Assembly: GCA_024195585.1 (NCBI GenBank)
Contig: SWBL01000006.1
Location: 62,001 to 126,000, forward strand
From: Aureobasidium sp. EXF-3400
Lineage: Eukaryota; Ascomycota; Dothideomycetes; Dothideales; Saccotheciaceae
DNA: 64,000 nt
Direction: 5' to 3'
Shown: one piece after another, positions 9,671 through 54,760 of the stretch
Position numbering within the stretch: position 1 is the stretch's first letter
Layout of the letters: each line of letters starts with the position of its first letter
Made by a program: the position numbers and the translations under genes
Notes under the pieces: model-generated
What the model saw: only the letters and a program-made list of their open reading frames with translations
Told to the model about the DNA's origin: nothing
The model's database searches: none

Positions 9671-10033
9671 TCAGAAACTCCAATTATCCAGCTCATCTGC
9701 GAGATCATCCACTCCACAATAATGATCGTGTCTAGGCGTGTCATTACGGAGATCTTCGCTCACAGTCATCAGTGTGTCGCTCAGGGCATCCCATTTGCTG
9801 TCCATTTGTCCAGCGTAATGGTCTTCCTCTCCATCGTCATACTCTACCCAACAATCCCAGCCATATTTTCTTCGGCGTACGATTACACTAGGGTCATAGC
9901 GATCAGGGTAGAGAGAACGATATTTTCCTGTTGATGTTAGATCGAGGTTGCAATGTGGTATAGGGAGTGGTGGGGGTATGGGGGGCTTACGGAGGATATC
10001 TCGGATCACTTGAGCTTTGGTCTTCTTGGCCAT
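9671..10033 (-). CDS. LRxQI-family small protein, KYR subtype, 99 aa
   Basis: Exons 10033-9991 (43 nt) and 9927-9671. The 63-nt intron has a GTAAGC donor, a CTAAC branch site and a CAACAG acceptor. The start is MAKKTKAQVIRDIL, and the split codon (C|GA) leads into KYRSLYPDRYDPSVIV. The phase-1 intron directly after the Ile-Leu of the first helix is the hallmark of the family described under findings. The second exon shows a strand-like PSVIV segment, a Trp-rich strand (YGWDCWVEY) and an acidic C-terminal part. Its closest relative in the window is the broken gene at 31317-31719, which shares MAK...R|KYR..YP. No targeting signal is visible. Function is unknown. Splicing is supported by frame, consensus and the paralogue. 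Confidence 0.7.
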   Translation of the reverse strand: MAKKTKAQVIRDILRKPPIPPPLPIPHCNLDLTSTGKYRSLYPDRYDPSVIVRRRKYGWDCWVEYDDGEEDHYAGQMDSKWDALSDTLMTVSEDLRNDTPRHDHYCGVDDLADELDNWSF

Positions 10034-11230
10034 GATTGATAGACTTGTTGGGGTAGTTGCAGCTGTGTTTAGAAAGCGTGTTGTAGTAGATGCGTTGCAG
10101 TAGGGGGATGGCTGGTGTGTAGTGGAGGAATCAAAAGTGATGTTGAAATCATCGAACTTTATGGTGATTATGTCGGATGCTGCTTGAAAACGTGTGAGAT
10201 CTCGTACGTGAGACGGTCTTGAACATGTACCATGTTTGCTTTGTTTACTGGACTCGCCTTGAGTATTCCAAACTTCTGAGATATGTCTTGCATCAGAATC
10301 TCTTTGTCCATCAAAACAAGACTTTCACACATGAGACCCAGGTGTATATGCTGCCAGATATGTCGGAAAGACATGGATCATCAGAACAGCCAAGCTGATG
10401 GTGAGGGGAGTCTTGAAGTCATACCTCAAGTCTTCTCGAGAACTTTCGACTTTTGAGAGGGCAAAGTGAATGAATTTCCGTAGGCCACAACAAAAGCAAG
10501 AAACTCGGAACAGCATAAACGCCCAACTCATCGTCAACAAGCAATATCTTGGTCACCTACGCAGCCATTGGGACGATGTCTATCTGCTCGCAGACATCCT
10601 GCCTTCATAAGGGCAAAAGCGTACAGATTACCCCTGGATTCAATGGTCAGAACAAGAGGTCTTATCTTATAGATGAATGAGCCGCTTACCAGTGAAGTGA
10701 AAACTTACCTCATATATACCGCAGAGATCCACTCCTATCAAGCAGCAATCACTGCCAGTGTGTTCCATGGCCGATCTAGTAAGTCCTTAATCACTGGTGG
10801 AGCGGTACCTGGGTTCGATCCCCAGGAGAGACCCACTCTTTCGCCACAACCACATCAGTCCTTTCCCCCAGGCAGTGGTTGAGAGTCCCATTGCTGCTTT
10901 GAAAAGAAACCCGAAATCGACAACACCTTGTAAACTCCTCTCCCCCCGAGGTCGCTGGTGTGGGTTTCTCTGGTGTGCAGTTCTTTTGCTCGAGGTATGT
11001 AGGAATAATGTTGTGATGGGAGAGTCTAGTTGTTTTGGGTGAACAGAAGTAATTGATGTTATCCTTTTGTTCACCCGTGAGAATGTCTGCAATCTTGGCA
11101 CAGTAAACACAGTGAGTTGGTTTTGTTTGATCAAGCATCACCGATTGGATTGATGAGGCAACTGCGAAAAATAAATACACCAAAACACGAGCAGACTTCT
11201 CTGACTTCCCATGACAGACCACCGGGAACA
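10034..11230. other. Intergenic; contains a tRNA T-arm-like hairpin at 10809-10825
   Basis: No convincing gene. At 10809-10825 a perfect five-base-pair T-arm (CTGGG, loop TTCGATC, CCCAG) has the Pol III B-box consensus, but I found no matching 5' acceptor stem or A box. It is best seen as a tRNA fragment. Short minus-strand frames at 10168-10374 show no family motif. Confidence 0.4.
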
Positions 11231-11599
11231 CTAAGCCTCGCTATATCCTTCATCCTCACTCTCTTCCTCATCCACGTCAACATCGCAACACGAACAACCG
11301 GCTCTTCCACGTCGAGAGCTATGCTCTATCAGCGACTCTCGATAGCGTGTATACATCTCCATCATAGCCTCGTCTGATGTTCTGGCGAGTCTTGAGGTAC
11401 GGTAGAGCGAGCCTTGATGTTCGCTGTAGATGTAGTACTTCCAGCGAAAAATATTCGAGGAAGAGACCCGGATGTGCTGTAGATGTATGGTGATGGTACC
11501 GAGCTCTGGGAGGCGATCTTGGAGCGTCGCTGTGGTTGTTAGCAATGATGTACAATCATACATAGTCAGAGGTCTTTTACTTTGGATTGAGTACTGCAT
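11231..11599 (-). CDS. Probable divergent LRxQI-family protein with Cys/acidic tail, 105 aa
   Basis: Exons 11599-11581 (19 nt) and 11529-11231, with a 51-nt intron (GTAAAA donor, GCTAAC branch site, CCACAG acceptor). The first exon encodes only MQYSIQ. A phase-1 split codon (A|CG) joins it to TLQDRLPELGTITIHL. The second exon then shows FRWKYYIYS, a later helix with DEAMMEMYTRY, and a tail with a Cys cluster (CSCCDVDVDEEE) rich in Asp and Glu. The intron position, strand-strand-helix order and location inside the array support family membership, although the first exon is much shorter than in the neighbours and lacks the Leu-Arg motif. A longer frame reading an ATG at 11639 is out of phase with exon 2 and was not used. 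Function is unknown. Confidence 0.55.
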   Translation of the reverse strand: MQYSIQSKRPLTMYDCTSLLTTTATLQDRLPELGTITIHLQHIRVSSSNIFRWKYYIYSEHQGSLYRTSRLARTSDEAMMEMYTRYRESLIEHSSRRGRAGCSCCDVDVDEEESEDEGYSEA

Positions 11600-12309
11600 A
11601 TTGCGGGTGGAGGGGCTGATTTTGGTATTTGGAGGACATGATGTCGAAGTTCTGATGGAACACTAGATGTTTGGAGCCTACTTGTTTATCTTGTCGCTTT
11701 TGTAGTACTCACATCCATCTTGACACTCTATAGTAAGACATTTAGAACTCTATGTGTCTCAGATCAACCATTGCCCTGGTTCCGAGGATAGGTCATCGAC
11801 TCAGAAGAATATGGAGTCTCATTGTCTGGATGTCTGGATGTCTCGATGGCTATTCTTTGTTCATTGTTCCCTGGACCATACGACTGTCTCTGTGTCCACC
11901 GAGGCCAGAAGACACACCCAATTACTCGACAGTGGTTTGGGTTGACTATCAAGACGGTCAAAACTTACTGAAACTGTATCCCTGAGCACATGAGGATATA
12001 CACTGCTGCTACTTGTGTTGATAGGAAGAGACGGTCCAAAGATAAGAATGCTTCAGGACTGATTTTACTAAGCGAAAGGGGTATGTGTGGAAAGGGGTTT
12101 CCATTGAATTGAGACAGCTGTCTCGTTGTGAACAGTCTTCATCAATCGACTGTTGATGAGAATTGAAGACCACCAGAGTGACGATGTAGTTCAAGATCGT
12201 GTCCCATATTGGCAAAAGTCACTCGTGTCTCAGAGAGATGCCTATACACCCGATTAGAATACTGACATCACCAAAGAAATGAGGTGTGGAACCTTGAACC
12301 AAGAGCAGT
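11600..12309. other. Intergenic, no supported gene
   Basis: Several short frames on both strands without motifs. Nothing recognised. Confidence 0.45.
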
Positions 12310-12642
12310 TTACTTAGGAAGTGGGACGTTGTTCTCCTTGGCCATCTTCCAAACCTCGTCGCTCAGATACTGCGCCACATGCTGCAGAGCTTCTCTCTCG
12401 GTGTTGTGGCCCCTGATAGCATGAACGTACTCAGATCTGTTTCTTGCGGTCACGATGGCCCAGTAGAGATCGTCGTGTGTAGCAATAGCGATTCGAATGT
12501 CTCCTTCGGTAAGGCCATAGACATAGCGGAAGTTGTCTAGTGACGTTAGAACCAATGGAAGAGTCTCTGCGTTCATGAGAATCACTGTACCATTGATCTG
12601 GGCTCGCAGCGACATCAAGGTGTCAGCAGAGAATGAAGCCAT
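12310..12642 (-). CDS. LRxQI-family small protein, 92 aa
   Basis: Exons 12642-12591 (52 nt) and 12536-12310. The 54-nt intron (GTACAG donor, TCTAAC branch site, CACTAG acceptor) is a multiple of three without an in-frame stop, so retention would only insert 18 residues. Exon 1 encodes MASFSADTLMSLRAQIN; the split codon G|AC gives Asp and leads into NFRYVYG. Exon 2 has IRIAIATHDD and YWAIVTARN, both strand-like, then a helical C-terminus (EREALQHVAQYL) with a Lys-rich end. The start was taken at the ATG that gives a first exon the same length as in the next gene; the frame is open ten codons further upstream. It pairs most closely with 13250-13574. Function is unknown. Confidence 0.75.
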   Translation of the reverse strand: MASFSADTLMSLRAQINGTVILMNAETLPLVLTSLDNFRYVYGLTEGDIRIAIATHDDLYWAIVTARNRSEYVHAIRGHNTEREALQHVAQYLSDEVWKMAKENNVPLPK

Positions 12643-13249: not shown

Positions 13250-13574
13250 CTAGAGAATCCCATCCTTCTTGGCCTTCTGCCAGACCCTGGTGCTCAGAAG
13301 CTTGAGCAGATGTTGGAGAGCACCCTCATCGGTGTCAACCCCGTCAGATCTCCAGTGGTCATCAGTGTGCGTTCTGCCCACCATGGCCCAGTAGCGCTTG
13401 CTATGAGAGGCAATGGCGATGTTGGGTTCTTCTTCGCAGTCTGGGTAAAGGTAGCGAAAGTTGTCTAGGCATTCATGTTAGTATTTGAGAAAGAGAATTG
13501 GCACCGACAAAGAATTGCTCACCCTTGATTTGGGTCCGCAACAGCATCATGGTACCGGTGGGGTGAGAAATCAT
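13250..13574 (-). CDS. LRxQI-family small protein, 88 aa
   Basis: Exons 13574-13523 (52 nt) and 13464-13250, with a 58-nt intron (GTGAGC donor, ACTAAC branch site, GCCTAG acceptor). Exon 1 encodes MISHPTGTMMLLRTQIK, and G|AC gives the Asp before NFRYLYP. Exon 2 shows NIAIASHSK and YWAMVGRT, both strand-like, then EGALQHLLKLLSTRVW and a basic end. It resembles 12310-12642 over its length (LR-T/A-QI, DNFRY-x-Y, ALQH, VW-x-x-AK), which points to a recent tandem duplication. Orientation and spacing match that neighbour. No targeting signal. Function is unknown. Confidence 0.75.
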
Positions 13575-14004: not shown

Positions 14005-14326
14005 CTAACCAAATCGCTTGGCAAGTGAAACCCCCTCCTCCTTGAGCTTTTGCCAAAGTTCTTGCTCATGGTAAGGTGACATATTCTCCATGGCAGCCTC
14101 TCTGGTCTTGGACCCTTGAGCAGAACGAATACGATCCTCAGAACAAGATAGATGGAAGATGATGACCCACCAGAGGTGGTCGTGTTCCGCGAGGGTGATG
14201 ATGGGATCTGGAAAGCCGGGGCAGAGAGCTCGGATATTGTCTAAGAAGCGTTGTCAAGCCCTTTGTGATCTAGTAATTTGGTGCGTAAGGGAATGTCTTA
14301 CCGACGATCTGAGCACGAAGGTCCAT
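14005..14326 (-). CDS. LRxQI-family small protein, 86 aa
   Basis: Exons 14326-14302 (25 nt) and 14240-14005. The 61-nt intron has a GTAAGA donor and a CTTAG acceptor. Exon 1 is only MDLRAQIV, and G|AC gives Asp before NIRALCPGFPDP. Exon 2 continues with IITLAEHD and a strand LWWVIIFHL, then a C-terminal helix containing LWQKLKEEG, close to the VWxKAK endings of the two genes to its left. The ATG next to the motif was chosen because no conserved sequence lies upstream, but the frame stays open to an ATG near 14455. It is the last minus-strand member of the array. Function is unknown. Confidence 0.7.
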
Positions 14327-14642: not shown

Positions 14643-15014
14643 ATGATGTCTTACAACTTCAGCGAGCTCGCTGGTCTCCGCGAGCAGATTCTCGGTCAGG
14701 AAATCCACACTGTAACTCTTGAACGACACTGACTTTTACAAGAGAACTACCGTGTCATCGATACTGGCAACGCCGACGCACTCCTCATCATCACTCTGCG
14801 CAAGAAGAACCCTGCAGAGCTCTTGATGTACCCCTTCGTCACTTATCGCACCGAAGACATGTATGAGGCTGTCTTGATCACCTCACTCGACAAAGGCAAG
14901 AAGTTCTTGATGAGCGACTCCAGTCCCTGGAACACACCTATTCCTGCTCTGATGGAGCTGCTGAAGCAGACTTCCAAGATCTTGGGAGAGAAGATGTCGG
15001 AGGGTCAGAAATGA
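14643..15014 (+). CDS. LRxQI-family small protein, 107 aa
   Basis: Exons 14643-14694 (52 nt) and 14743-15014, with a 48-nt intron (GTCAGG donor, ACTGAC branch site, TACAAG acceptor). Exon 1 encodes MMSYNFSELAGLREQIL; two ATGs in a row open it. G|AG gives Glu before NYRVIDTGNADA. Exon 2 shows LLIITLRKKN and MYEAVLITSL, both strand-like, then IPALMELLKQTSKILG, the family C-terminal helix. An alternative acceptor two bases downstream would break the frame. It is the first plus-strand gene of the array. No targeting signal. Function is unknown. Confidence 0.75.
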
Positions 15015-15964: not shown

Positions 15965-16290
15965 ATGGCCGACGCCGGTAACAATATCCTCGGTCTTCGT
16001 GCTCAGATTCTTGGTAAGCATTTTCCCCCTCTATATTCCCATCCATCGCTGCTTGATGTGTCTAACACAACCCAGACAATGTCATATTCCTCCGCCCTAC
16101 CAAGCCAATAATCATCACCACGTCGCTATCAATCACAAGCAATCGCTGGTCAGCACAGGTCTTGGATGACGTCGAGGCCGTCGCTACTACAGACCTCTAT
16201 CCGACTGTTGAGCTTGCTTTGAGGGCCCTGCTGGAGGAGACTAGCAAGATGGTCTGGGAAAGACAGATTCCAGTGTACATCCCTTACTAG
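15965..16290 (+). CDS. LRxQI-family small protein, 87 aa
   Basis: Exons 15965-16013 (49 nt) and 16076-16290. The 62-nt intron has a GTAAGC donor, a TCTAAC branch site and a CCCAG acceptor. Exon 1 encodes MADAGNNILGLRAQIL, with the same 16-codon length as the next two family genes. G|AC gives Asp before NVIFLRPTKP. Exon 2 continues PIIITTSLS and RWSAQVL, both strand-like, then VELALRALLEETSKMVW, the C-terminal helix. The match of exon-1 length and intron phase across three neighbouring genes is strong support for the model. Function is unknown. Confidence 0.75.
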
Positions 16291-17296
16291 CTTCAGGGAC
16301 TTGATTCCATGAAATTTCTGTTTCCTGTGCTTCTAGAAGACACACATAGTCCGAGATTGGTTCTTGGTATCTTTGAGGTGAAGAAGGGCACACATTATCC
16401 TGGGAGGTTCTTGGTCCGCGCAAATCGCATGCACTTGTCAACGGAGGCATTTTTCGACACTCAAACTGTGTTTCCATCTATCACCTTGTCTGCAAAGAGT
16501 CCCGGATACAAGTCCTCTGTGATTTGTGCTTGGATCAAAGAGGCATCGTACATCACAACAGAGCCCCTGAACAAACAGTCCATGATACGAGAGTGTTTGT
16601 GACATTGATGCAAAGAAGATTGAATGGGAAGATTTCTGACTGGACGATAGGTCCTCTGACTGTAAAACGATTGGTTCTTTCCGCTGAACCAGGATGATGC
16701 TATGACTGTTTCCTGTGCTATGATACGAGATTCCAATCTTTTGATCTATTGCAACAAGGATAACAATACCAACATCATGTCTTGTAAAGTAGGGGTGTAT
16801 TGCTGATACCACTGAAGCTGTCACAGCAAAGCCATAGCCGTCGGGGTCTGATGAGCAAAAAGAAGAAACAGGAAGTTGGTATGAATGGCTCTGGCGCCGG
16901 TAGCGACTGTTCGTGTTCTCGGCAACTCCGTTGCGAAACACACCATATGAGGCAGACGAACGCTTGCACTGAATTGTGTTTTTCTCCTCTGGAAACTGAT
17001 GCTACTTGGCTTGGATACCAAGCCTACCGCCCACCCCTTGGGACCCACCCTGCCACGGGACATATACACCCGCTTGCCAGCACCAACGTCGCTGCAAGAG
17101 ATCATCAACACAAGCAACGATGATTGGAGGAATATGGGAGCGAAAACGGAAAAGACAGAAAAGACTGGGCTCCGTTTGTACTGAGCAAACGCAAGCTGCC
17201 CCTTTATTGTGTCACCTCCAACACTGAAAATATTCGGTTCCATTACTTCCTCCTCAAATTTTTCGTTCCATCATGTTCTTCTCAACGACCGCAACT
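16291..17296. other. Intergenic; possible decayed family copy near 16461-16560
   Basis: On the minus strand near 16562-16500 the frame MYDASLIQAQITEDLYPG resembles a family exon 1 joined to exon 2 without an intron, and stops follow soon. This is suggestive only. The longer minus-strand frame at 16438-16941 has no other support. Confidence 0.3.
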
Positions 17297-17841
17297 ATGG
17301 GCCATCCAGACAGTGCCATCTTGGGTCTTCGTACTCAGATTCTTGGTAAGTTATACTTTTCTCATGTACCCTCCGACATATTTACTGACACGCTATAGAA
17401 AACTGGCGCTATGCACACCCAGAGCACACCAATGTCGTTGTCGTTACTACCTACGAGTACCGGGCCTTGGATAACAACGGACGGCCGCTTCTGTACGAAG
17501 CTCTGATTGCCGAGGATCGTAGTTATGGCGAAAGGATCTTTCTCCGAGCACAAAGCGACTGCAACATCGAACATGCATTGCGTACGCTGTTTCACTCGAC
17601 CAACGAACAGGTCAAGAAAGTGACCATGGAAATTCCTGTGGAGTCTCTCGAAATCAAGCCCCTCAATCAAGACGATACCAACGCCGAAAGTCATGAAAAT
17701 GGATCTGGAATGAACACCAAGGAGTCAAATAAATCTCCAGAGGAGAAGGAGATGGAGCGCTTCCACAATGCACTTGGTCATGTCCTCGATCTGGCTTCCA
17801 AGAATCGAGTCACTGAGTCCGAGGCCGAGATCGAGAATTGA
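17297..17841 (+). CDS. LRxQI-family protein with extended charged C-terminus, 163 aa
   Basis: Exons 17297-17345 (49 nt) and 17399-17841. The 53-nt intron has a GTAAGT donor, an ACTGAC branch site and a GCTATAG acceptor. Exon 1 encodes MGHPDSAILGLRTQIL. An in-frame ATG at 17273 would add eight residues; 17297 was chosen because it gives the same exon length as its neighbours. G|AA gives Glu before NWRYAHPE. Exon 2 shows NVVVVTTYE and LYEALIAED, both strand-like, then EHALRTLFHSTNEQVKK, the family helix. About 70 further residues, rich in Glu, Lys and Asn, end in a second helix (FHNALGHVLDLASKN). After the stop another frame stays highly charged to about 17950, hinting at a lost C-terminal part. 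Function is unknown. Confidence 0.75.
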
Positions 17842-18401: not shown

Positions 18402-18750
18402 ATGGCTATCAAGGACAACACCTTTGTGGGTCTTCGCACTCAGATCATTGGTAGTTTTTACCAATCGCTTGCTCCCAATACCTGAGCATCTTTGCTGATA
18501 TGATGTAGAAAACTGGCTTTTCCTCAACCCAGGCGAACCCGTGCCTGTGATTGTCATCACACAAGATAACCAGTACTACGAGGCTATTCTCTTCAACCAC
18601 CGTTCACCTGGCCGCAAGGGCCTCCTGGCATCGACCCGCCGCTCGCACGTCGAAGAAGCTCTGCACGAGTTGCTCAACACGACCGGCGAGATGATCAACA
18701 AGTCTCTGGATCCTAGAAGAGATGATTCTGGTAGACGCATCTTTATCTAA
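18402..18750 (+). CDS. LRxQI-family small protein, 96 aa
   Basis: Exons 18402-18450 (49 nt) and 18509-18750, with a 58-nt intron (GTAGTT donor, GCTGAT branch-like site, ATGTAG acceptor). Exon 1 encodes MAIKDNTFVGLRTQII, and G|AA gives Glu before NWLFLNPGEP. Exon 2 is the clearest example of the family fold: strand PVPVIVITQD, strand QYYEAILFNH, a basic loop, then VEEALHELLNTTGEMINK. It resembles 17297-17841 most (GLRTQI, ENW). The ATG follows a CA-rich leader typical of highly expressed fungal genes. No targeting signal. Function is unknown. Confidence 0.78.
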
Positions 18751-19107: not shown

Positions 19108-20814
19108 CTACACAGCAACATCACCACCAAAGCCCACCGGTCTTCTAGACTGCTCCCCCTGTTTCGGAGGCACATGTGGCAGAACAGCCATAACCTGATA
19201 CAGCTTTCCCATTCCCTGAGGTCCCACATCAACCAATCTCCTCCACCCACTCTCAATCCTCTTAACCGTCTCGGTCAAATCACTCTTCGTTCTCTGCCCC
19301 TCAGTCTTTTCAGCAACACTGCCTCTCTCACGATCAACAGCTAACTTGACAAGTTGAGCAGCTCGTTGCTCAATACCCATAGAAGTAAGGAATCGTGCCT
19401 GATCAACAGGACCGTGGACTTCAACATGCAGAGATGCATTAATGGCACTTTCAGCCAAAGCGAGGAAATCGACATCGGCGCTGATGTCTACTTTTCCTGG
19501 TTCGGAGAGAGGAGATACCATGCGGTGTTCTTTGATTCCGCGAAGAGAGTTTACGGGGATGGTGGAGGGGGTGCCGTAGTCAAGGATCAGAGCGGCGCCT
19601 GAAGCTTGCTTTTTGACGATTTCTTCGATAGCGCGACGGGGAGATACGCGGCGGCCGACGGGAGGAGGGGTTTGGTCTTTGTGGTTTGTGTAGAGGGCTG
19701 AGGGGCTAACGCCTCCACCGATGCGAACGGCAAAGTCTGCGGCGTACGTCTGGGATTCGGGGGAGATTTCGATGACGGAGCCTTCGGTGTCTTTGAGGTT
19801 CTTGTAGCGTTGTGATTGCTCTGGTAGGTAGAGGGAGTGGGGTGTGGCGGCTTGAGAGCGGGTGAGTGAGAATTCGGGGACGGGCTGGTCGCGCTGTGAT
19901 TTGGGAGTGTTGAGTGTGTCGTGGGTTGCGTAGGGTGAAGTGGGTGATACGACGAGTTCGCGCCATTGAGAGACGGTGTTTGGGTTGCCGGTGGCTGAGG
20001 GGTCGACCTTGTGGACGCCGGTAGGGGTGCGGATCTGCTTGGGAGCAGCTTGAGCCTTGACAGACTCAAAGACGTGGATAGGGAGAGCATCGAAGAACTC
20101 GTGGGCGACGATGAAGGGCGAGCTATCTGTCTCTCTGGGCACAAAGCGTATGTCCTCGCACCAGATGATGTTCAAGTCTGGAGTGTACTTGCATGTACTC
20201 TTGTAACCAATATCGATCTCTTCCAGAGGGTTGTCGCCACAGAGAAGCTTGTGTTGAGCTTGACGCAACGAAGGGCTCGCCTCGACCATGTAGATACCAT
20301 CGATAGCCTGAGCCAAGGGTTTGAAGTTGCGAATGGATCTCAACATGTCGTCCATCAAGGTTCCTCGTCCAGGGCCCATCTCCATCAGGTAAACGCCACT
20401 GCTCTTTCTGCCTTGGGCAATCCATTCTGCAACGAACCATAGTCCAATGAGTTCACCAAAGATTTGAGATATTTCTGGAGATGTGACAAAGTCTCCTTTC
20501 TTGCCAAAGGGATCTTTGCCTTCGGTGGACTGTGTGTAGTAGCCGGTTTCGGGGAAGGTCAGGCATTGTCGCATGTATGCCGCTACTGAGATAGGGCCAG
20601 TCGTCTTTAGAGAGTGTCAGTACACCGATGCTACATGAGAAGACAGAAGCGGACTTACAGTGATGGCTTCGCCCAATGTCTTTGCCAGAGGCGTAGACCA
20701 CTCTCTAGAGCTTGTGGACGAACATCTTGCGCCGGAGCATGTCAGGACTCGCCGCGACAGTGCGAGCCGCTCACTAGCCACCCTCCTGGCTATTTGAATC
20801 GTGCTGCGTCTCAT
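19108..20814 (-). CDS. NDUFAF7: NDUFAF7/MidA-type SAM-dependent protein arginine methyltransferase, 550 aa
   Basis: Mitochondrial methyltransferase that in other species dimethylates an arginine of the complex I subunit NDUFS2 during assembly. Exons 20814-20659 and 20604-19108. The 54-nt intron has a GTAAGT donor, an ACTGAC branch site and a TAAAG acceptor, and joins GEAIT to TTGPISVAAYMRQCL, a conserved start of the catalytic domain. The SAM-binding site follows (MEMGPGRGTLMDDMLR), preceded by GDFVTSPEISQIFGELIG. The first 45 residues are Arg/Ser-rich without acids, as in a mitochondrial presequence. A Pro/Ser-rich insertion lies between SPTSPYATHD and the C-terminal SAM-fold strands (AALILDYG). 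The start is the ATG nearest the Arg-rich stretch; an open frame runs upstream. Divergent from the CDK11 gene. Confidence 0.93.
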
Positions 20815-20979
20815 GCTTCTACTCCGGTGTCCGATTGAGTGAAGATGTGGATGGTGTTTATTGCGACAAAAAGTTGGAGAGCTGAAGCTCGGAGGTCTCC
20901 AACTTCGCCGCAACTTCATGACGCACTCGTCGGCATCCCCCTCCAACTATAACACTGTCCAACCACATCCAGTTCCATC
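20815..20979. promoter_or_regulatory. Short bidirectional promoter
   Basis: Only 165 bp separate the start codons of the divergent NDUFAF7-type and CDK11 genes, so both promoters and 5' UTRs must overlap here, unless the true NDUFAF7 start lies further upstream. Confidence 0.6.
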
Positions 20980-22329
20980 ATGACATCGCGCTGGGCTGAT
21001 GACAAAAACGATGCCGCCCTAGACGCACAACGCAAGCAAGAGAAGGAGCAAAAAAAACGCGCAAAAGCCGAAAAACAACGCAAGCAAGAGGAAGCCGACC
21101 GACTACGACAACAACAGGAACAAGCAGCAGAGGCCGCCGACAGACCATCCAAGAGAAGACGTCTATCGCCTGCACAACAAGATGATCAACCGCGACAACT
21201 CGTTCGCTTCAACGCCCCGTCATGGCAACCCGCTCGCACAATCGACAGCTTCGAACGATTGAACCACATTGAAGAAGGCAGTTATGGCTTCGTATCACGA
21301 GCAAGAGAACTGGCTACTGGAGAGATCGTCGCGATCAAGAAGATGAAGATGGAGCCGGGAGCTGCACAAAACGGCTTCCCAGTCACAGCCTTGCGCGAGA
21401 TCCAGACACTATCTGCTGCAAAACACAGACACATTGTTGACCTGCGAGAGGTCGTCGTGGGCGAGAAAGGCAACGTCGACGACATCTTCCTTGTCATGGA
21501 CTTTCTGGAACACGATCTGAAAACACTCATGGACGATATGGAAGAGCCATTCCTACCTAGTGAGGTTAAGACATTGATGCTACAACTCGGCAGTGCCATC
21601 GAATTTCTTCACGACAGATGGATCCTACATCGCGATCTGAAAACCTCAAACATTCTCATGAACAACCGAGGCGAAATCAAAATTGCCGATTTTGGTATGG
21701 CCCGCTTCTGCGGCGACCCTCCGCCCAAGAACCTCACACAACTCGTCGTCACCCTCTGGTATCGAGCTCCCGAGCTTCTTTTAGGTACCACGACATACGA
21801 TAGTAGTGTCGATATGTGGAGTGTAGGCTGTATCTTCGGCGAACTTCTTACCAATGTTCCATTGCTCCAAGGCAAGAACGAGGTAGACGAGCTCAGCAAG
21901 ATTTTCGAACTATGTGGTGTACCCACCGATGCCTCATGGCCTGGTTTTAAGCGCTTGCCCAACGCTCGCTCATTACGACTACCACGAAACGCACAAACGA
22001 CTGGCTCAGTGATACGCTCAAAGTTCCCTTTTCTGACTAAAGCAGGTACGGATCTGCTATCCGCTTTGCTTTCTCTGAATCCAGCGAGCAGGCCATCGGC
22101 GAAGGAGCTTCTGGAACACAATTACTTCACGGAAGACCCGCGGCCTAAGAGCACAGCTATGTTTCCTACTTTCCCTAGTAAAGCTGGTCAAGAGAGAAGG
22201 CGTAAACACAGGACGCCCAATGCGCCTATGCGTGGTGAGGGCGGTGCTGCTGCTGCGGACTTTAGTGGGTTGTTTGCGGGACGCGACGATGAAGAGATTG
22301 GTGGTGGTTTCCAGTTGAAACTGGTATAA
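20980..22329 (+). CDS. CDK11: CDK11 (PITSLRE-type) cyclin-dependent kinase, 449 aa
   Basis: Nuclear kinase of the CDK11 group, linked in other fungi and animals to transcription, splicing and Mediator function. Single exon. Residues 1-60 are a Lys/Gln/Arg-rich coiled coil ending in a basic nuclear-localisation-like run (KRRRLSP). The kinase domain covers about 90-386: Gly-loop EEGSYGFV, ATP lysine K120 in VAIKK, the cyclin-binding helix PVTALRE at 134-140 (PITSLRE in human), catalytic HRDLKTSN near 217, DFG at 237-239 and VTLWYRAPELLLG. All catalytic residues are present. The C-terminal SMFPTWP-like segment (AMFPTFPSK) is also typical of CDK11. The last 50 residues are Gly/Ala-rich. Shares a short promoter with the methyltransferase gene. 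Confidence 0.95.
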   Translation: MTSRWADDKNDAALDAQRKQEKEQKKRAKAEKQRKQEEADRLRQQQEQAAEAADRPSKRRRLSPAQQDDQPRQLVRFNAPSWQPARTIDSFERLNHIEEGSYGFVSRARELATGEIVAIKKMKMEPGAAQNGFPVTALREIQTLSAAKHRHIVDLREVVVGEKGNVDDIFLVMDFLEHDLKTLMDDMEEPFLPSEVKTLMLQLGSAIEFLHDRWILHRDLKTSNILMNNRGEIKIADFGMARFCGDPPPKNLTQLVVTLWYRAPELLLGTTTYDSSVDMWSVGCIFGELLTNVPLLQGKNEVDELSKIFELCGVPTDASWPGFKRLPNARSLRLPRNAQTTGSVIRSKFPFLTKAGTDLLSALLSLNPASRPSAKELLEHNYFTEDPRPKSTAMFPTFPSKAGQERRRKHRTPNAPMRGEGGAAAADFSGLFAGRDDEEIGGGFQLKLV

Positions 22330-22950: not shown

Positions 22951-22959
22951 AACACCACA

Positions 22960-31316: not shown

Positions 31317-31719
31317 ATGGCCAAAGGAATCAGAAGTAGAATTGCCCGTAAGTCGCACTTTCTTACTACCTTACCCTCCACAGAGTCTGAACTAATCCCT
31401 GGAAAGAAAATACCGTACCAAATACCCGAGACGCCGCGATGCCAAAGTCGTCACCGGCCGCAACAGACAAGGCTGGTGGCTTACCATATGGTACGGCCTC
31501 GAGATCGACCATCGCGGCAAACAAAGCTGGAACAAAAGTTACCTGATCGACAGTATGCGATCCGAAAAAGATGCGCTGAATGAGGTTTTAGGGTGGTTCG
31601 ATGAAGAGTCCGGAGGGTTCTGGTCACCTCTTTCCAATATGGATGACTCTGATGATGAGGACGATGACGATGATGGACTGGGAGGAATCACGCAGGGGAT
31701 GAGACGTATGGTTTGTTGA
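31317..31719 (+). pseudogene. Frame-broken KYR-subtype LRxQI-family gene
   Basis: Exon 1 (31317-31347) encodes MAKGIRSRIA and ends in phase 1 at a GTAAGT donor, as in the intact relative at 9671-10033. The matching body runs from 31408 to the TGA at 31717-31719: KYRTKYPRRRDAKVVTGRN, a Trp-rich strand (GWWLTIWYGLE), DALNEVLGWF, and an Asp-rich tail. The only AG acceptor in place (after CTAAT, ending at 31406) leaves one base too few or too many, so the spliced frame misses the KYR frame. In the intact relative the acceptor is CAG followed by GAAAATA; here the same position reads AAAG followed by AAAATA, consistent with a mutated splice site. A sequencing error in the A-rich stretch or an unusual acceptor could also explain it. 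Function is unknown. Confidence 0.5.
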
Positions 31720-37242: not shown

Positions 37243-37291
37243 AGAATATGTAACGATACCCTGACATGACTATCTCCTACCAACTCTCTCT

Positions 37292-39294: not shown

Positions 39295-40257
39295 TTTCAG
39301 ACCGGTTTTCAGGAAGATTGCGTCAACAAGTGCAATAATATTGTAAGGGTGGTAAGCAGGTCCGTTGAAAGGATACGGATAAAAAGAAAGCCCAGAACGT
39401 GCTGGAAGATGTTGTGTTCCAAACATGCTTGAACCGCTGGGGCAGGCAAGTGTTGCCAACGAAGCAAAGCACACAAGCCATCTCGCTTGCACAAATTCAC
39501 CAAGTGCTGCCTCCTTTGCCTGAACAACATGTTTTTCTCCACAACGATCATATCGAAACGATTTTCTCAGATGTGCGAAAACAATTGCCCCAGATGCAGG
39601 AATAACAAGCAGCGTCTGTCTGCAACGGTGTACTTGCCTGCCGCGAACAAGTCCGATGGTTCGGACTGTTGAAAGTCTAGCCTTTACGTTTAGCCACGCG
39701 TCGGCTTCGACGACGCCTCCTCAGCTCGTGATTCCTTGAATTCCATGAGACATGAATACAGTACTCGAGTAGCTTTCACGGAAGCTGAGCCAGCTGTTAG
39801 TCGCCGGAACCCACGAGTCAACTGCCTGGAGAGCTTGCAGACCACTCAAGTGCTTACTTCGGAGTTCGCATGAGTTGATCATGATGCTCCGAACTTTGAT
39901 TAATGGTTGACATGGCAAGCTGAGCCCTGTTACCGTTTGCGGCTGACATGGTCTGCGTTGTTGGTTTGAGTTCAGCATGTGCACACCATGATCGGTTGTG
40001 GCAGGCTTCGATACCCGTTCCAACAGCGAATGTGTTCTAGCTGTGGCTGTCTCAATCTGGCGAGCGTCATTTATGCTTCAGCTGATAGCTGAGATCGATC
40101 CGAAGAAAGGTTACGGAATCATAGATATCATATGCTGTACCCTGTGTTGGACTTCATAACTTTTTGGCATTTTTCAATTCGACTATTGTAGACCACCGAT
40201 ACCAGGCTCCAGGATAACAAGCACATTAATCACCGACGGGATCTGGACTCAGTCAAG
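39295..40257. other. Intergenic, no supported gene
   Basis: Several short frames without motifs. Holds the promoter of the GT71 gene. Confidence 0.45.
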
Positions 40258-42702
40258 ATGAGAGGACTCGACTCACTTGACTCAATGACAGGATACTTGA
40301 GCCCCCGGCTCGAGAAGTTCGACCCTGAATATCTCACACACTATGTCAGCAGTCCATCGAGATGCCTCAAGGTCGTGAGAGGACTTGCATTCACAGGATG
40401 TGCTGTGTTCTGTGTTCTTCTATACACAAGTGTGGCAACTCATTCAGACTGGAACTATGTACCATCAAGCCTTGCCACCAACACAACCACTGGCGTCACA
40501 ACTACCAAAATCACAACGCCAACGACGCCGTACAAGGCGACATCACAATCTAAAGAGCAGGGCAAGGGATCGTTATGGGGGCAGAAGAAGCCGCAGTACT
40601 ACACCATCCACACCAATGAACCCTACGATATCGATACCGCTCTTCGCACAGTACTCAACTTGTGCCCAGATGAGATATACTACAACGCATTGACTCTGCC
40701 CATCACGACGGGTGGTGAGGCGAAGCTCCACGAGACTGGTGTGAGAGTCCGCATGTTCAAGAAGTACTTTGATGCATGGGAAGCGTTACACGTAGTAACA
40801 GATAGTCTGTCCGACACCGCTTTTGTACGAGACGATATTCTGCGCCATATCAGAGACTCGAAGGACGTGTCTCCCTTCACCTCCGGATCACGAATCGAAG
40901 CTATGCGACAATACGAGACATACCGCTCATTCTTGTCGAACATGTCCTCCACTCTTTTCCCCTGGACCAACCCCTACTTCTCCGACCACATGACACTTCA
41001 CGGACATATGTACAACGCTGGACGTGGCATTGTCATCTCTGGCAGTAACTCACAAGCTTCGTACATCAAGACTGCAATCTCCTCATTCCGTGCCATGGGC
41101 TGTACCCTGCCAGTCGAGATCATGTACCTCGGCGACACCGATTTGAGCGAAGACGCGCGCATAGACCTTGAAACTATCCCAGATGTCGTTACTCGCGATG
41201 TCAAGAAGATGGTCAACGATCAAGGCTGGGAACTTGAGGGTTGGGCCGGTAAAGCTTTTGCTGCTTTCTTGAGCTCCTTCCGCGAAGTCATCCTTCTTGA
41301 TGCGGATGTCCTATTCTTCAATGATCCAGCATTGATGTTCGAGGAACCTGGCTACGTTGAGACCGGTGCCCTATTCTTTACCGACCGTACGGTCTTCGCA
41401 CAGGACAAGCGAACTTTCCTGCGCAAGATCATGCCAAAGCCTGTGTCTAACAAGCTCAAGGAAAGTAGGTGGTGGTTGGGCGAGACCGGTGAGAACCAAG
41501 AATCTGGTGTCGTTGTAGTCGACAAGTGGAGACATTTCTTGAGTATCTTCCTGACGGCGAGATTGAATGGGCCCGATCGACGCGATACCGATGCCGGTCA
41601 AGGAACGTACAGCTTCTGGTGGGGTGACAAGGAGACTTGGTGGATTGGGTTCGAGCTCGCTGGCGACACGGACTACCACTTCCATCAAGGCGGCACTGGC
41701 AACATGGGCACAGTGACCAACACCGAGCCTATTGAGAAGAAGGAAGAAAAGACGGAAGACAAGCAGGAAGAGAAGAAGGAAGATCAGGATGACACACCCA
41801 AAGAGGAGACGGCGCCTGATGAGAACCCGCATACTACGGACGCTGACGATTTCGAACACAACTTGGCAAAAGTGGAAGAGAACCAGGCTGACAAGACCGC
41901 GGAACCAACAGCCACTTCGGTCGCTGCTGATCTCGAGAACAACTTGAAACAGTTGCAGAGCGATCAGGCTGTGCACACCGAGGAGCCAACAGTAGCACGC
42001 CTCGCGGGCGAAGTCAAGCCAGACATCGAGACTCAGCAGGAATCGAAGGTAGAGTTCCTCGCTCCTGCTCCAGATGCAGACGATGTGATGAAGGCCATCA
42101 AGGCAGCAGAGGCTGCAAGAGCGGCACGACTCCCGACAGAAGAGGGTCACTACCTACCGGTGCTGGAGAACATACAGCCCGCCGATGACTCTGGCGCTGC
42201 CGAATCCGCTACCGCTACCGAAGGATCTCCCGCTTCTACAGAAGAGCCTGAAACTGATCGAGCCCGTTCCCGCCGTCACTTGGCTAAGCGCGACAGTTGG
42301 TTCGATATTGCCATGGAGACCAAGCGTCCAAACCTTACTGGTCCCGGTATGCTCGACCTGCCTGATCAGAACATTATCCTCTGTTCCCCGCAACTCTTGC
42401 ACCTTTCTCGCGATGGCCGACCTCTGTGGTTCAACGGCTGGATCCAGGACAACAAGCACGACGCCAGCTCCGACGTCTCCAAATTCGAGTTCTTCATGAG
42501 TGAGAAGAGGAAGGACAACGAGTGGGCTGAGTGGATTATTGGTGCAGACAACATGTGTTGTCTGAAAGGAGATGATTTGCATATGATGAACGATCAGGAG
42601 TTGAAGGCTTTGGAATTGATCGTGGATATCGCCAAGGAGAACGGATCCTTGAAGGAAGTCTTGGACAAAGAAAGGAAAGCAAACAAGAATATCGCGGACT
42701 AG
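40258..42702 (+). CDS. Mnn1-type alpha-1,3-mannosyltransferase, GT71, 814 aa
   Basis: Golgi type II membrane enzyme that adds mannose from GDP-mannose to glycan chains. Single exon. A short cytosolic N-terminus precedes one membrane anchor (GLAFTGCAVFCVLLYTSVA), then a Thr-rich stem. The catalytic domain shows GIVISGSNSQASYIKTAIS, LPVEIMYLGD, the metal-binding DAD in REVILLDADVLFFNDP, GENQESGVVVVDK and YSFWWGDKETWWIGFEL. About 190 acidic, Ala- and Pro-rich residues (about 490-680) then interrupt the domain before NLTGPGMLDLPDQNIILCSP and LWFNGWI, which belong to the same fold. This insertion contains an imperfect 27-residue tandem repeat. The GDP-mannose transporter for this pathway lies at 57801-59027. 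Confidence 0.9.
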   Translation: MRGLDSLDSMTGYLSPRLEKFDPEYLTHYVSSPSRCLKVVRGLAFTGCAVFCVLLYTSVATHSDWNYVPSSLATNTTTGVTTTKITTPTTPYKATSQSKEQGKGSLWGQKKPQYYTIHTNEPYDIDTALRTVLNLCPDEIYYNALTLPITTGGEAKLHETGVRVRMFKKYFDAWEALHVVTDSLSDTAFVRDDILRHIRDSKDVSPFTSGSRIEAMRQYETYRSFLSNMSSTLFPWTNPYFSDHMTLHGHMYNAGRGIVISGSNSQASYIKTAISSFRAMGCTLPVEIMYLGDTDLSEDARIDLETIPDVVTRDVKKMVNDQGWELEGWAGKAFAAFLSSFREVILLDADVLFFNDPALMFEEPGYVETGALFFTDRTVFAQDKRTFLRKIMPKPVSNKLKESRWWLGETGENQESGVVVVDKWRHFLSIFLTARLNGPDRRDTDAGQGTYSFWWGDKETWWIGFELAGDTDYHFHQGGTGNMGTVTNTEPIEKKEEKTEDKQEEKKEDQDDTPKEETAPDENPHTTDADDFEHNLAKVEENQADKTAEPTATSVAADLENNLKQLQSDQAVHTEEPTVARLAGEVKPDIETQQESKVEFLAPAPDADDVMKAIKAAEAARAARLPTEEGHYLPVLENIQPADDSGAAESATATEGSPASTEEPETDRARSRRHLAKRDSWFDIAMETKRPNLTGPGMLDLPDQNIILCSPQLLHLSRDGRPLWFNGWIQDNKHDASSDVSKFEFFMSEKRKDNEWAEWIIGADNMCCLKGDDLHMMNDQELKALELIVDIAKENGSLKEVLDKERKANKNIAD
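41851..42012 (+). repeat. 81-bp imperfect tandem duplication inside the GT71 gene
   Basis: Two 27-codon units, 41851-41931 (FEHNLAKVEENQADK...) and 41932-42012 (LENNLKQLQSDQAVH...), share the order (F/L)E-x-NL-x-x-(V/L)-x-x-x-Q-A and a later EPT. They lie in the acidic insertion of the mannosyltransferase. Confidence 0.65.
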
Positions 42703-43058: not shown

Positions 43059-44551
43059 ATGATGGATTCTGTCAACAAGTGGTCAATCACCTTGGTCAGT
43101 CTCTTACAACGGATCGAGAGTATGGTCTCCTTTTCAGAAAGTCGCGTGCACAGATCCACTGACAATCCTCATCAGATGCATACAAAGCCAAGTGGGCACA
43201 GCCTGCTGAGGGTAAACCTGATATCGTCTTCGACAAATAGAGCTGTTGCAAACCACCAGTCAGTGGGGACCACAATGTGTGGTGGGCCTACGTGCAACCT
43301 CGAGCCCGTCCTTCTGTGCTTGGGCGCGGCAAGACGCTTGAGGCTGCTTTGACGAAACTTCTCAATCAGCTCAAAGGGGATCCTCCGAAACTGGCGAAAA
43401 AATATGAAGTCAAGTTTGACTCGAATACCAAACAGGCGACCATTCCCAAAAGGACGACGACCCCTGAAACGGAAGTAACACCATATGCGATGGAGTTCAA
43501 CCTCCATTCCAAGGCAAAACAGTAGTCAGACCCAGCTGTATTCGCGCCAATTCGACCTTTCACATTCAACTCCAGTATCCTTCCAAACAAACCTGCATCT
43601 CTTTCCAACGTCCAGCTGACTAAACCTGGATCCACCTCGCAGCCTCTTAACACGACGCAAGATACCTGCACCGGGCGTGTGGCTTCAATTGGAAAGGGCA
43701 ATCACGACATCCCGGAAAGCACTCTCACACGCGTGGCTCCACTCCAATGGAAGCTCCATACTCGTGATTTCCCTAGCTCCAGAGACAGTCTGTATCCCGA
43801 CTCAGTGGGTGGGTCCGAAAACGTTATCACACACGCACCTGGTCGTCACCTCGAGAAATACCCTATCGTACCAAACGCGTTTCAATTTGGTTCTTCGCAT
43901 GACTTACTGGCATCCCTCTCGAAGACGCCTATTCTGCAGGATGTGAATGAGGAAGAAAAGCGCAAGGGGGCGGATGTAGAGTCCTGCGTGGACGAGGAAG
44001 ACCGGGAGACAAGGAATGCCCGGAAGGAGGCTCAGAAGATGGCAGACCTCTTGACAGCTCGTCAAGACTTTAGTGACCGGCTGAAGCCCTTCAAATTCGC
44101 TCCGACCAGCCCTCCTGGCCAAAAGCAGACTCAGCAGGAGACAGAACCTTTACCGGCGTGCCAGGGACTCGGCAGTCGTCAGACGCCTTTCACCTTCAAC
44201 AACCTCACTGGAACCTTGCCAGGAGGAACGGGATCTGCCTCCAGCTTCGGCACCTTCGCTTTCGGCTCCTGTCCTCCTACAATCCTTCCAGTGAAGTTGG
44301 AGCAATCACTTGTTCCCCCTTCCTTCGATGTCCAGAAGAGAATCGACACTTTCCCTTTCCAAGCCGCTCGAGCCTCTCCAGTACTCAGTCAATATCGCTC
44401 CCAAGTCGACGATGGTCCCTCTGTCGGCCAGCTCTCCCGCAATCCAAGCCATGTCGTGCAACAGAATCAGGACCGGATGAAACGCGAGTCTTCTGGACCA
44501 CCGGCTGGACAGAGACTTGAGAAGAAGGTCAAAGCTGAGGAGACGAGCTGA
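43059..44551 (+). CDS. Probable LRxQI-family protein with long Pro/Ser/Gln-rich tail, about 445 aa
   Basis: Proposed exons 43059-43119, 43176-43211, 43260-43474 and 43526-44551. Exon 1 ends SLLQRIE in phase 1; A|AT gives Asn before AYKAKWAQPAE, the family junction. Exon 3 shows HNVWWAYVQPR and GKTLEAALTKLLNQL, the C-terminal helix. The frame then meets a TAG at 43523-43525, but a 51-nt segment with a GTAACA donor and a CAGTAG acceptor removes it and keeps the frame. About 340 more residues follow, low in complexity, with a charged helix (EDRETRNARKEAQKMADLL) and a basic end. If the 51-nt intron is retained the product stops at about 137 residues. The second intron (48 nt) has a weak branch site. 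The exon structure is my best reading, and the function is unknown. Confidence 0.5.
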
Positions 44552-45615: not shown

Positions 45616-46167
45616 ATGGAATATCTCCCTCTTATCGCAACCGTTGCTTACTTCGGCAAAAAGTACCTCTCTATGCGCCGTGAAGAGGCAGCTGAAACAG
45701 CACGCCGTACAGAGGAAGCTGAGGCCGCACGCCGCAAGCAGGAAGCTGAGATTACACGCCTCAGAGAGGAAGCTGAGTTCGATCTCCGTAGAGAGGAAGT
45801 CGGATTCGCACGCATCAAGGAAGAAGCCGAGATTGCACTCCGTACATTGGAAGCCAAGATCTCTGAAAGCATACAGCGCGCCGAAATTGAAGCTGGGATC
45901 ATCCGCTGTAGAGAGGACGGCGAAACCTCACGCTGCAAGGAGTACACTGGAGTCTCACGCTTTGTTGTCACACGCGGTGACAACCAATACGACCTCACAC
46001 TTGCACGCTCCAGAGACGATGTTGAACTCCGTATGGAACGTGGCGAACATGTAATCAAAATCGGACGCAGCAGAGATGAAGACGAAGCTCCGTATACCTC
46101 AGAAACCAGGCACGAGACCCATGATGAATATGGATTCTTTGACGAGCGCTATGATCTTTCAGACTAG
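45616..46167 (+). CDS. Nonapeptide-repeat coiled-coil protein, 183 aa
   Basis: The start is the ATG in CCACCATGG, which opens a hydrophobic segment (MEYLPLIATVAYFGKKYL) that could be a membrane anchor or uncleaved signal. About ten units of nine residues follow (RREEAAETA, RRTEEAEAA, RRKQEAEIT, RLREEAEFD, LRREEVGFA, RIKEEAEIA ...), strongly charged and helical. The C-terminal third (FVVTRGDNQYDLTLARS, then Asp/Glu-rich) breaks the repeat and may form short strands. The repeat is also visible at DNA level as a 27-bp unit, so it expanded by tandem duplication. No known domain. An upstream in-frame ATG at 45418 would add 66 residues of poor quality. Function is unknown. Confidence 0.6.
   Translation: MEYLPLIATVAYFGKKYLSMRREEAAETARRTEEAEAARRKQEAEITRLREEAEFDLRREEVGFARIKEEAEIALRTLEAKISESIQRAEIEAGIIRCREDGETSRCKEYTGVSRFVVTRGDNQYDLTLARSRDDVELRMERGEHVIKIGRSRDEDEAPYTSETRHETHDEYGFFDERYDLSD
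45676..45957 (+). repeat. 27-bp coding minisatellite, about ten units
   Basis: Degenerate tandem units encode R-R/x-x-E-E-A-E-x-x. One unit is extended by four codons (ESIQRAEIEAGII). Lies entirely inside the coiled-coil gene. Confidence 0.7.
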
Positions 46168-46716: not shown

Positions 46717-47090
46717 TCAGATATAGGAAAAGACATGCTCATCTTCAGGGTCGAATTCACAGAGCTTTGAGTTCAGAACCATGCGGGCGGTGACATCGAA
46801 AAGGTTTTGCAGAGCAATTTCCACACTCTCGCCAAAGCGTCCGAAAGCAAGCTGTTGGTGTCCATCGTATGCCACAGCACGCCAGTAAGGAGGCTTGTGC
46901 TGAATCAAATCGTGCTCAGTGACGACAAGAGGACGGCAACCAGGTTTGATGTATTGACAGTTGTCTGATTTGACTCGTGCGTTAGTGGCAGTTCAAGAGG
47001 GAAGTGTAGTCCTGACATACCCAGGATCAGTTGGCGCACATCGATCACGAGGTTGTTGCCGAAAGCCACGCTACTGAAGCTGAGACCCAT
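46717..47090 (-). CDS. LRxQI-family small protein, 105 aa
   Basis: Exons 47090-47021 (70 nt) and 46964-46717. The 56-nt intron has a GTATGT donor, an ACTAAC branch site and an AATCAG acceptor. Exon 1 encodes MGLSFSSVAFGNNLVIDVRQ followed by LIL, longer than in the array members. G|AC gives Asp before NCQYIKPGCRP. Exon 2 continues LVVTEHDLIQ and YWRAVAYDGH, both strand-like, then VEIALQNLFDVTARMVL, the family helix, and a short acidic end. Intron phase, junction and helix all match the array genes 30 kb away. No targeting signal is certain. Function is unknown. Confidence 0.72.
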
Positions 47091-47735: not shown

Positions 47736-47823
47736 CTCCTCATCGCAATGCTTTGTCGTCCAGCTCCCAACCACTAGATCTCCTCATCGCAATGCTTTGT
47801 CGTCCAGCTCCCAACCACTAGAT
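47736..47823 (+). repeat. Perfect 44-bp tandem duplication
   Basis: Two identical 44-bp copies, 47736-47779 and 47780-47823, each starting CTCCTCATCGCAATG and ending CCACTAGAT. A third partial start (CTCCT) follows. It lies in non-coding DNA; perfect identity suggests a recent event or an assembly artefact. Confidence 0.9.
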
Positions 47824-48591
47824 CTCCTTGTTTCAATCTTCAAGTCAATACACAAAGACTCGAACCAGAAGTTTTGAAAGTCTTGGCGGTTTTCACCATA
47901 AAGAAGTTCTCGAGAACTCAAGCGATTTGTAACTCCTGATTGGAAGAAAGTTATTACGGGCGACCCGATCAACTAAGGTAGTATCGCACCAGCGGTCTGT
48001 ACTGTTCAGCTAACTCTATGCCATGAGCCTGTTAAGAGCGCGGCGCTTCTACAAGACCTCTGGCTCCTCTTCCAAGCACCAACCAGCACTTTGACCAAGG
48101 ACTACGGCGTGTTAGCCCCTTCTCCTGCTGAGCAGACAGAGGCCGAAGAGGTATCTGCTGTTTGAGTAATGGTGACTGCCAATGGGTGAATACATGAGCA
48201 TTGCCCTCTCGATAAACTCTTGATGCTTGTTGAGACAAAGAGTTCTGGTGTCGGTACAACGAAGACTCACGGCATTCAGTAAGCTGAAGATGTGAATGAA
48301 TTTGACTTGGAGGACCTTCCAGGGTCGAGTCTCCAGGGTGCCTTACCCGTGTGCCCGCTGTACTCTACAATGATGATTCAAACTTATGTTCATCGTATGT
48401 TGCTTTGACGAATAAGCATATTTGGGGCCAATACGGGACGAGTAAGGGAGGTCAAGATGAGTGTTTACGAGAAGTTCAATTGTTGTTACAAGCTCTTCTG
48501 TACGTAGAGTATCTGTTGATCATGAGACATGCTTGATGCAACGTCTCGTGCAAACGAAGCGTCTCCAATCCGTTGCTGAGAAGGTGGGCTT
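47824..48591. other. Intergenic; possible family remnant near 48351-48536
   Basis: The plus-strand frame 48351-48536 contains SSYVALTNKHIWGQYG and LREVQLLLQALL, faintly like a family exon 2, but has no ATG or exon 1. Not called as a gene. Confidence 0.3.
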
Positions 48592-48914
48592 TTAGGCGCT
48601 GGTGACTTCGAGGAGCCTTTCCATTGCTTCAGCCGAGGTGCGTCCAGAGGCGCGAGCGACGGTAACACGAGGGTTTCCGGCGACGACGTAAACGGTGTGG
48701 ATTTGCTCGTCGCCGCGCTTAGTGACGGCAGCGGTGATGGCATAATCCTCCAGCTCGATGAACGTGAGCTCACAGTTCACTGGTGCGAGTCAGCGCTGTG
48801 ATTATAACAAAGCGCTCATCGAGAAGGAGGCAGGCAGGGGGTGGAGGGGATTGGGGACCTGGACGGTGAGTACATACAGATGATATGTCTGCGGATATCC
48901 ATGGTTGATGGCAT
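48592..48914 (-). CDS. LRxQI-family small protein, 74 aa
   Basis: Exons 48914-48878 (37 nt) and 48779-48592. The 98-nt intron has a GTATGT donor, a CGCTGAC branch site and a CACCAG acceptor. Exon 1 encodes MPSTMDIRRHII. The phase-1 codon T|TG gives Leu before NCELTFIELEDYA. Exon 2 continues AITAAVTKRG and HTVYVVAGN, both strand-like, then AEAMERLLEVTSA, where the protein ends exactly at the family helix, making it the shortest complete member. Without the splice there is no ATG for exon 2. No targeting signal. Function is unknown. Confidence 0.7.
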
Positions 48915-54754: not shown

Positions 54755-54760
54755 CTTCTC

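Follow-up and report, generated by a model that had tools for sequence, protein, structure and literature searches.

A fast-evolving, intron-marked gene family of Aureobasidium with a predicted dsRBD-like fold

Introduction

We wanted to know whether the small open frames scattered between the core genes of one genomic stretch of Aureobasidium sp. EXF-3400 form a single gene family and, if so, what the encoded proteins may do. The stretch has 64,000 nucleotides (contig SWBL01000006.1, positions 62,001 to 126,000, forward strand) and is called the window below. A sequence-only reading of it had proposed 16 copies in 15 entries, together with a relic, all built on one plan: a short first exon ending in a Leu-Arg-x-Gln-Ile (LRxQI) helix, a phase-1 intron directly behind it, and a divergent second exon. 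We observed that this family is real, that it extends well beyond the window and that its proteins diverge fast under constraint. The genes are named g1 to g15 (Table 1), and contigs of the assembly are written C6, C10 and so on.

Results

Recovery of the family in the window

Both strands of the window were searched for every two-exon model whose intron is GT-AG and in phase 1 (n = 2,114), and the models were scored with a profile built from 14 spliced members. Candidates from the reversed window, a smaller set (n = 683), served as the control. In leave-one-out runs, in which the left-out models were splice models chosen by us, 14 of 14 domains outscored the strongest reversed-window candidate from the same run (7.7-58.4 bits vs 3.2-7.1 bits). 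The weakest were g2 and g1; the other 12 domains reached 17.9-58.4 bits, with controls of 3.2-5.6 bits. In-sample scores were 56-97 bits for the 13 two-exon members and 43 bits for the best g12b candidate.

Fourteen of the 16 proposed copies were thus recovered, while g10 (31317) and g13 (43059) remained marginal. The second exon of g10 is family-like (9.4 bits vs 7.8 bits for the best reversed stop-to-stop fragment), and its first exon, as read by eye, does not join it in frame through canonical splice sites. The g13 locus scored 12-13 bits against the same 7.8 bits and requires two introns and a shifted junction. We rejected both as intact two-exon members. The proposed relic at 39068 found no support, as its 0.4 bits are noise. 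No further stop-to-stop frame of the window exceeded the best reversed fragment with the family profile.

Copies across the genome

A scan of the window and of loci fetched from the rest of the assembly found 13 spliced members in the window and 31 elsewhere, 44 in total, with g12b as an additional copy. They are located on nine contigs (C6, C10, C37, C56, C87, C107, C196, C302 and C586) of a 53.4-Mb genome in 717 contigs. Counted were rows of at least 40 bits, minus an artificial g12b row and plus L026:2567 (20.8 bits); the rows dropped below 40 bits were mostly overlapping pieces of counted genes. The number is a lower bound, with only the best candidates scored. Outside the count are C56:10325, C122:50186 and C239:43329, as well as L038:976 (12.5 bits) and L056:2596 (8.6 bits), which may be additional weak members. 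The C66 locus held no scored member, despite partial similarity to C302. Within this locus (C66:98500-108000, L023), at about 4484-4850, stretches are 74-94% alike to those of C302 around a family gene and carry an LRMQIM motif, possibly as a relic.

The conserved junction

The proposed exon plan held for most members, except for the length of exon 1. LRxQI is exact in 30/44 spliced members, the residue of the split codon is Asp, Glu or Ala in 35/44, and the residue that follows is Asn in 41/44. Exon 1 has 19-112 nt, not 19-70 nt as proposed, and is 37 nt long in 15/44; introns have 46-98 nt (median about 56). When the scan was free to choose phase 0, 1, 2 or no intron, phase 1 was best in 44/44 rows, with an in-sample profile made from these members and with row C196:80821 scored through its neighbour.

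We also searched the 53.4 Mb for the junction as a DNA pattern (codons for Leu-Arg-x-Gln-Ile-hydrophobic, a split purine base and a GTRNG donor). The strict pattern had 17 matches vs 1 for the reversed pattern, and 15 of the 17 are scored members, the exceptions being C6:133976 and C66. The looser pattern had 26 matches vs 3. Among nine close pairs, similarity in the intron was lower than in exon 1 in 9/9 and lower than at the start of exon 2 in 7/9. Annotated Aureobasidium proteins, which are database gene predictions, continue across the junction as our splice models predict. Fourteen NCBI proteins, selected for an intact N-terminus, were scored with a window-only profile: 13 reached 54-72 bits and P0021 reached 22 bits.

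Divergence rate and tree

We estimated nonsynonymous (dN) and synonymous (dS) divergence by the NG86 method on short pairs (40 listed, nine of them without finite dS). dN was below dS in 31/31 pairs with finite dS. Seven partner pairs (g12b/C586:3829, C10/C37, g12a/C56:67530, C107:141591/C302:59607, g8/C586:12545, g7/C586:11670 and g15/C87:49829) had dN 0.16-0.40, dS 0.5-1.5 and dN/dS 0.19-0.35. The ratio was 0.60 for C302:55892/C107:139163 and 0.4-0.6 for other close paralogues. Four neighbours in the window had dN/dS of 0.02-0.09 at similar dS (the protein kinase, the methyltransferase, the seipin and, in the histidine-kinase region, the frame 50268-51176). Frames read as genes at other loci had 0.05-0.13. 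Overlapping antisense frames (dN/dS up to 3.3) were not counted as genes. Two frames weigh against the contrast in rate with core genes, namely one beside C10/C37 (0.32) and one of C107/C302 (0.13). The ratios lie above those of most neighbours with dN still below dS; therefore, the family proteins change several-fold faster than most of their neighbours, yet under constraint. These values and the constant exon plan agree with the proposed picture of a multigene family in fast evolution.

The tree (52 rows, 97 columns) is weak. In it, five of the seven C196 copies group together, with an open fork (Shimodaira-Hasegawa-like approximate likelihood ratio test, SH-aLRT, 83), and so do eight C107/C302 copies (SH-aLRT 93). 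Related copies thus stand side by side, in line with the local duplication proposed earlier. Several window genes pair with C586 copies. These groupings suggest that at least some local duplications predate the parting of the two genome copies.

Predicted fold

AlphaFold predicted an alpha-beta-beta-beta-alpha fold for one member modelled on the family alignment (predicted local distance difference test score, pLDDT, 93). The alignment of this model omits P0016-P0018, P0001-P0005 and g6. An earlier model was set aside, as it read through the in-frame intron of g3 and was partly an artefact; its alignment omitted P0002, P0004 and exon 2 of g6. The confident fold is that of this one member. By DSSP, the order of its elements, starting with helix 3-24, matches that of the canonical double-stranded-RNA-binding domain (dsRBD, PF00035).

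The nearest solved folds were dsRBDs, HPF/YfiA and T7 Gp1.2, none of them significant. The dsRBDs gave a moderate match and include those of DRB, HYL1, RDE-4 and Dicer. HPF/YfiA had a Z score similar to or slightly higher than the dsRBDs; however, there a strand precedes helix 1, whereas the family model starts with a helix. T7 Gp1.2, a dGTPase inhibitor, was the best Foldseek row (E 0.013, not significant, 9% identity). The viral fold library gave no match with E ≤0.001, and the best hit of the module in the PDB sequence-profile search had E 0.24. The members have no Pfam family in common, in agreement with the earlier remark that no named domain is recognisable.

We compared the family with dsRBDs residue by residue on the 43-row alignment (A5), which omits C107:141591 and C302:59607 for their long inserts and includes g12b without a first exon. 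In canonical dsRBDs, KKxAK at the start of helix 2 holds the RNA-contacting lysines. In the family, Lys or Arg stands at the equivalent positions in 7%, 2% and 0% of rows (equivalence taken from the general dsRBD motif), and hydrophobic or acidic residues are found instead. The median isoelectric point of the domain is 5.7, and 6/43 domains are basic. With HMMER filters on and E values up to 5 allowed, the PF00035/DRBM profile matched 0/43 members; its 10 matches in the genome are all on contigs that hold no known member. The family therefore shares the order of secondary structure with PF00035, and differs from it in lacking these lysines and the profile match and in being mostly acidic. The motif and the profile speak against canonical binding of double-stranded RNA, which we rejected on this basis. 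The S/T-x-x-x-A start of helix 2 in the family resembles the dsRBD pattern.

Non-canonical type-B dsRBDs, such as those of Dicer partners (PMC5716075) and dsRBD5 of Staufen, are a second point of comparison. Like these, the family combines the predicted alpha-beta-beta-beta-alpha order with absence of the RNA-binding residues. The searches detected no sequence similarity between them, however, and the family consists of many stand-alone genes in one fungal genus. Helix 1 also looks longer in the family than in type-B dsRBDs.

Tails and fusions

Some members carry further segments. In g12b there are three AT-hook-like stretches (PF02178, E 0.0074, 16.5 bits vs a cut-off of 17.4). Many g12b relatives have a precomputed PF02178 match, and within the family hooks were observed in this branch only. 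The branch ends in a winged-helix-like segment. Two such segments occur at g11: one lies in its reading frame and the other (32849-33040), which is 39% identical to the C-terminal region of g11, in a different one. The segments of g11 and g12b have isolated weak Pfam matches to winged-helix or helix-turn-helix families. Their C-terminal profile found RPC6/RPC39 of RNA polymerase III as its best PDB sequence match (E 0.019, not significant), a comparison that covered the winged helix of RPC6. Acidic tails are present in g2, g10 and C586:8734. By eye, the gene at C6:39007 (L051, C6:36625-39828) joins a family member to FG-rich nucleoporin-like repeats.

In the window, g12b stands directly behind g12a without a first exon of its own, while its partner C586:3829 has one (MAEISGLREQIL). 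Matches of the window pass from C586 to C56 somewhere between 35286 and 35442, at the g12a/g12b junction, so a rearrangement boundary probably lies there. In C586, the stretch that matches 32.3-35.3 kb has the opposite orientation to the one that matches 19-22 kb. One partial protein of A. uvarum carries a g12a-type and a g12b-type domain fused in the same order. We also noted a metagenome protein of 560 amino acids, P0051, in which a g12b-type domain with hooks is followed in one frame by a g11-type domain and winged-helix-like segments; its layout suggests another fusion or an intron read through.

Distribution in the genus

A search of 5.8 billion proteins with the 43-row alignment returned 16 proteins, including annotated A. 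melanogenum and metagenome copies, and the named organisms were all Aureobasidium. For g12b we found 33 relatives, with the best 7,995 candidates by shared words scored. Those with an organism name were again all from this genus (A. pullulans, A. uvarum, A. namibiae, A. subglaciale and other Aureobasidium strains). C586:3829 shares 98% identity with an A. melanogenum protein, to which g12b of the window is 69% identical; with a metagenome protein, g12b reaches 99.7%. Judged from these matches, the family is specific to the Aureobasidium lineage and present in several of its species. In the literature available to us, mostly title listings and including parts of PMC9535773 and PMC12663654, we found no description of it.

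Most of the regions that we compared have a diverged second copy. Such copies exist for regions of the window (C586, C56 and C87), for C10/C37, for C107/C302 and for C238/C271; for C196 none was present among the fetched loci. The methyltransferase adjoining the cluster has two copies, on C6 and C586, and two of the Argonaute genes of this genome have nearly equal scores. Diploid hybrids of A. melanogenum are reported (PMC9535773). The diverged second copies together with the 53.4-Mb size fit a diploid hybrid, with a mixed assembly as the alternative.

Discussion

We read these genes as a lineage-specific multigene family built on a predicted dsRBD-like fold. Each copy would encode one alpha-beta-beta-beta-alpha module, roughly 75-90 residues long. 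Helix 1 would be interrupted by the phase-1 intron, so that its LRxQI half is encoded, together with the start codon, in the short first exon. Since the RNA-contacting lysines are replaced by hydrophobic or acidic residues, the module most likely binds proteins, be it itself, a paralogue or a conserved partner, in the manner of a non-canonical type-B dsRBD. The AT-hook, winged-helix-like, FG-rich or acidic tails may anchor it in the nucleus or on chromatin, and single-domain copies may act as variable partner or competitor subunits. We favour this reading, a genus-specific and probably nuclear protein-interaction module with tailed members and single-domain partners or competitors, tentatively and with somewhat less than even confidence. 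It could be extended, in a form that we consider speculative and unlikely as a whole: the AT-hook member with its winged-helix-like end would be a kept hub, and the dozens of clustered single-domain copies would tune or block it. The result would be a chromatin-level recognition or silencing system that differs between strains and species, with first exons lost or changed and copies fused where clusters rearrange, as at 35.3 kb.

The same fold could belong to adaptors of RNA silencing, proteins that cooperate with Dicer or Argonaute as DRB does in plants and Loqs/TRBP in animals, and that evolve fast and diversify against mycoviruses or transposons. The dsRBDs of DRB, HYL1, RDE-4 and Dicer are among the nearest solved folds, and the genome has Argonaute genes and canonical DRBM matches. 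We nevertheless consider such adaptors unlikely, because the DRBM profile does not match the members, the nuclear-type tails point to chromatin, and no connection with Dicer or Argonaute genes was seen, with none searched for. It is also quite unlikely that the module binds double-stranded RNA or DNA through other residues: the fold resemblance, the AT hooks and winged-helix-like segments of some members and the few basic domains would suit a divergent nucleic-acid binder, but the lost contact lysines, the acidic median and the failed profile search argue against it.

Clusters and fast protein divergence are also what one would expect of an arms race, in a selfish, killer or self/non-self recognition family. 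We find this improbable, as dN/dS is below 1 in the pairs with finite dS, relatives of one member (g12b) are present in several species, and a membrane-like stretch was found in 0/44 members. Small, clustered, lineage-specific genes could encode secreted effectors; this is highly improbable, since 0/44 had a signal-like N-terminus by a crude hydropathy rule (9-residue mean ≥2 and an uncharged run of 12 within the first 35 residues), used in place of a signal-peptide predictor. Chance frames or decayed genes without function are scarcely credible and already contradicted. The two doubtful loci, g10 and g13, do look damaged, but the leave-one-out scores, dN below dS and the annotated relatives in other species, which keep the same residues across the junction, speak against this explanation for the family.

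An expanded, fast-evolving family without a Pfam match would account for some of the hypothetical proteins in Aureobasidium, a black-yeast genus that is widespread, industrial and extremotolerant. A true RNA-free dsRBD that binds partners would offer a natural variant series for a nucleic-acid fold reused in protein contacts. The AT-hook member, present in several Aureobasidium species, would be the first gene to test.

Features of the window

Table 1. Family genes and other features of the window. Two-exon models have a phase-1 GT-AG intron, and stop codons were checked. LOO, leave-one-out score in bits (control of the same run in brackets); aa, amino acids.
Feature	Position	Strand	Model and segments	LOO	Relatives
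TOR-type kinase	2264-9313				
g1	9671-10033	-	exon 1 9991-10033, intron 9928-9990, exon 2 9671-9927; 99 aa	11.0 (7.1)	metagenome P0003, P0005
g2	11231-11599	-	exon 1 11581-11599 (19 nt), intron 11530-11580, exon 2 11231-11529; acidic tail	7.7 (4.4), weakest member	
g3	12310-12642	-	exon 1 12591-12642, intron 12537-12590, exon 2 12310-12536; 92 aa	50.8	tree group with A. melanogenum P0010, P0012, P0014, P0015
g4	13250-13574	-	exon 1 13523-13574, intron 13465-13522, exon 2 13250-13464; 88 aa	58.4	
g5	14005-14326	-	exon 1 14302-14326, intron 14241-14301, exon 2 14005-14240; 86 aa	47.2	
g6	14643-15014	+	exon 1 14643-14694, intron 14695-14742 (AAG acceptor), exon 2 14743-15014; 107 aa	29.4	
g7	15965-16290	+	exon 1 15965-16013, intron 16014-16075, exon 2 16076-16290; 87 aa	43.4	partner C586:11670; dN 0.40, dS 1.46
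g8	17273-17841	+	start 17273 or 17297, intron 17346-17398, exon 2 17399-17841	34.9	partner C586:12545; dN 0.33, dS 1.09
g9	18402-18750	+	exon 1 18402-18450, intron 18451-18508, exon 2 18509-18750; 96 aa	52.3	
Methyltransferase	19108-20616				
Protein kinase	20953-22329				
g10, doubtful	31317-31719	+	exon-1-like start 31317; family-like second exon 31396-31719, acidic tail		type resembles C586:8734 and A. melanogenum P0021
Second winged-helix-like copy behind g11	32849-33040	-	other frame; extra intron would be required		
g11 (32831 in the sequence-only reading)	32899-34084	-	exon 1 34048-34084, intron 33996-34047, exon 2 32899-33995; family domain 33799-33993; winged-helix-like domain 33262-33456; additional introns possible	44.2	
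g12b	34271-35283	-	exon 2 without own first exon; family domain 35087-35281; AT-hook-like repeats 34682-35029; winged-helix-like end 34274-34480	21.7	
g12a (35297 in the sequence-only reading)	35297-35829	-	exon 1 35793-35829, intron 35737-35792 (AAG acceptor), exon 2 35297-35736	42.8	C56:66481, C56:67530
Seipin	36052-37242				
Mannosyltransferase	40192-42702				
g13, doubtful	43059-43525	+	family-like last exon 43260-43525; two introns needed		
g14	46717-47090	-	exon 1 47021-47090, intron 46965-47020, exon 2 46717-46964; 105 aa	27.2	
g15	48592-48914	-	exon 1 48878-48914, intron 48780-48877, exon 2 48592-48779; 74 aa	17.9	partner C87:49829; dN 0.40, dS 1.18
Histidine kinase	51167-53980		frame of same region 50268-51176		
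tRNA-Asp	54664-54755				
GH5 with CBM_X2	55018-56493				

Two further open frames were noted. Behind the doubtful g13, the frame at 43526-44551 has recurrent FxF motifs (PFTFN, PFKFA, TFAFGS), possibly an FG-like tail. The frame at 45616-46167 has no Pfam match and is rich in repeated Glu-Ala-Arg units that look like a coiled coil.

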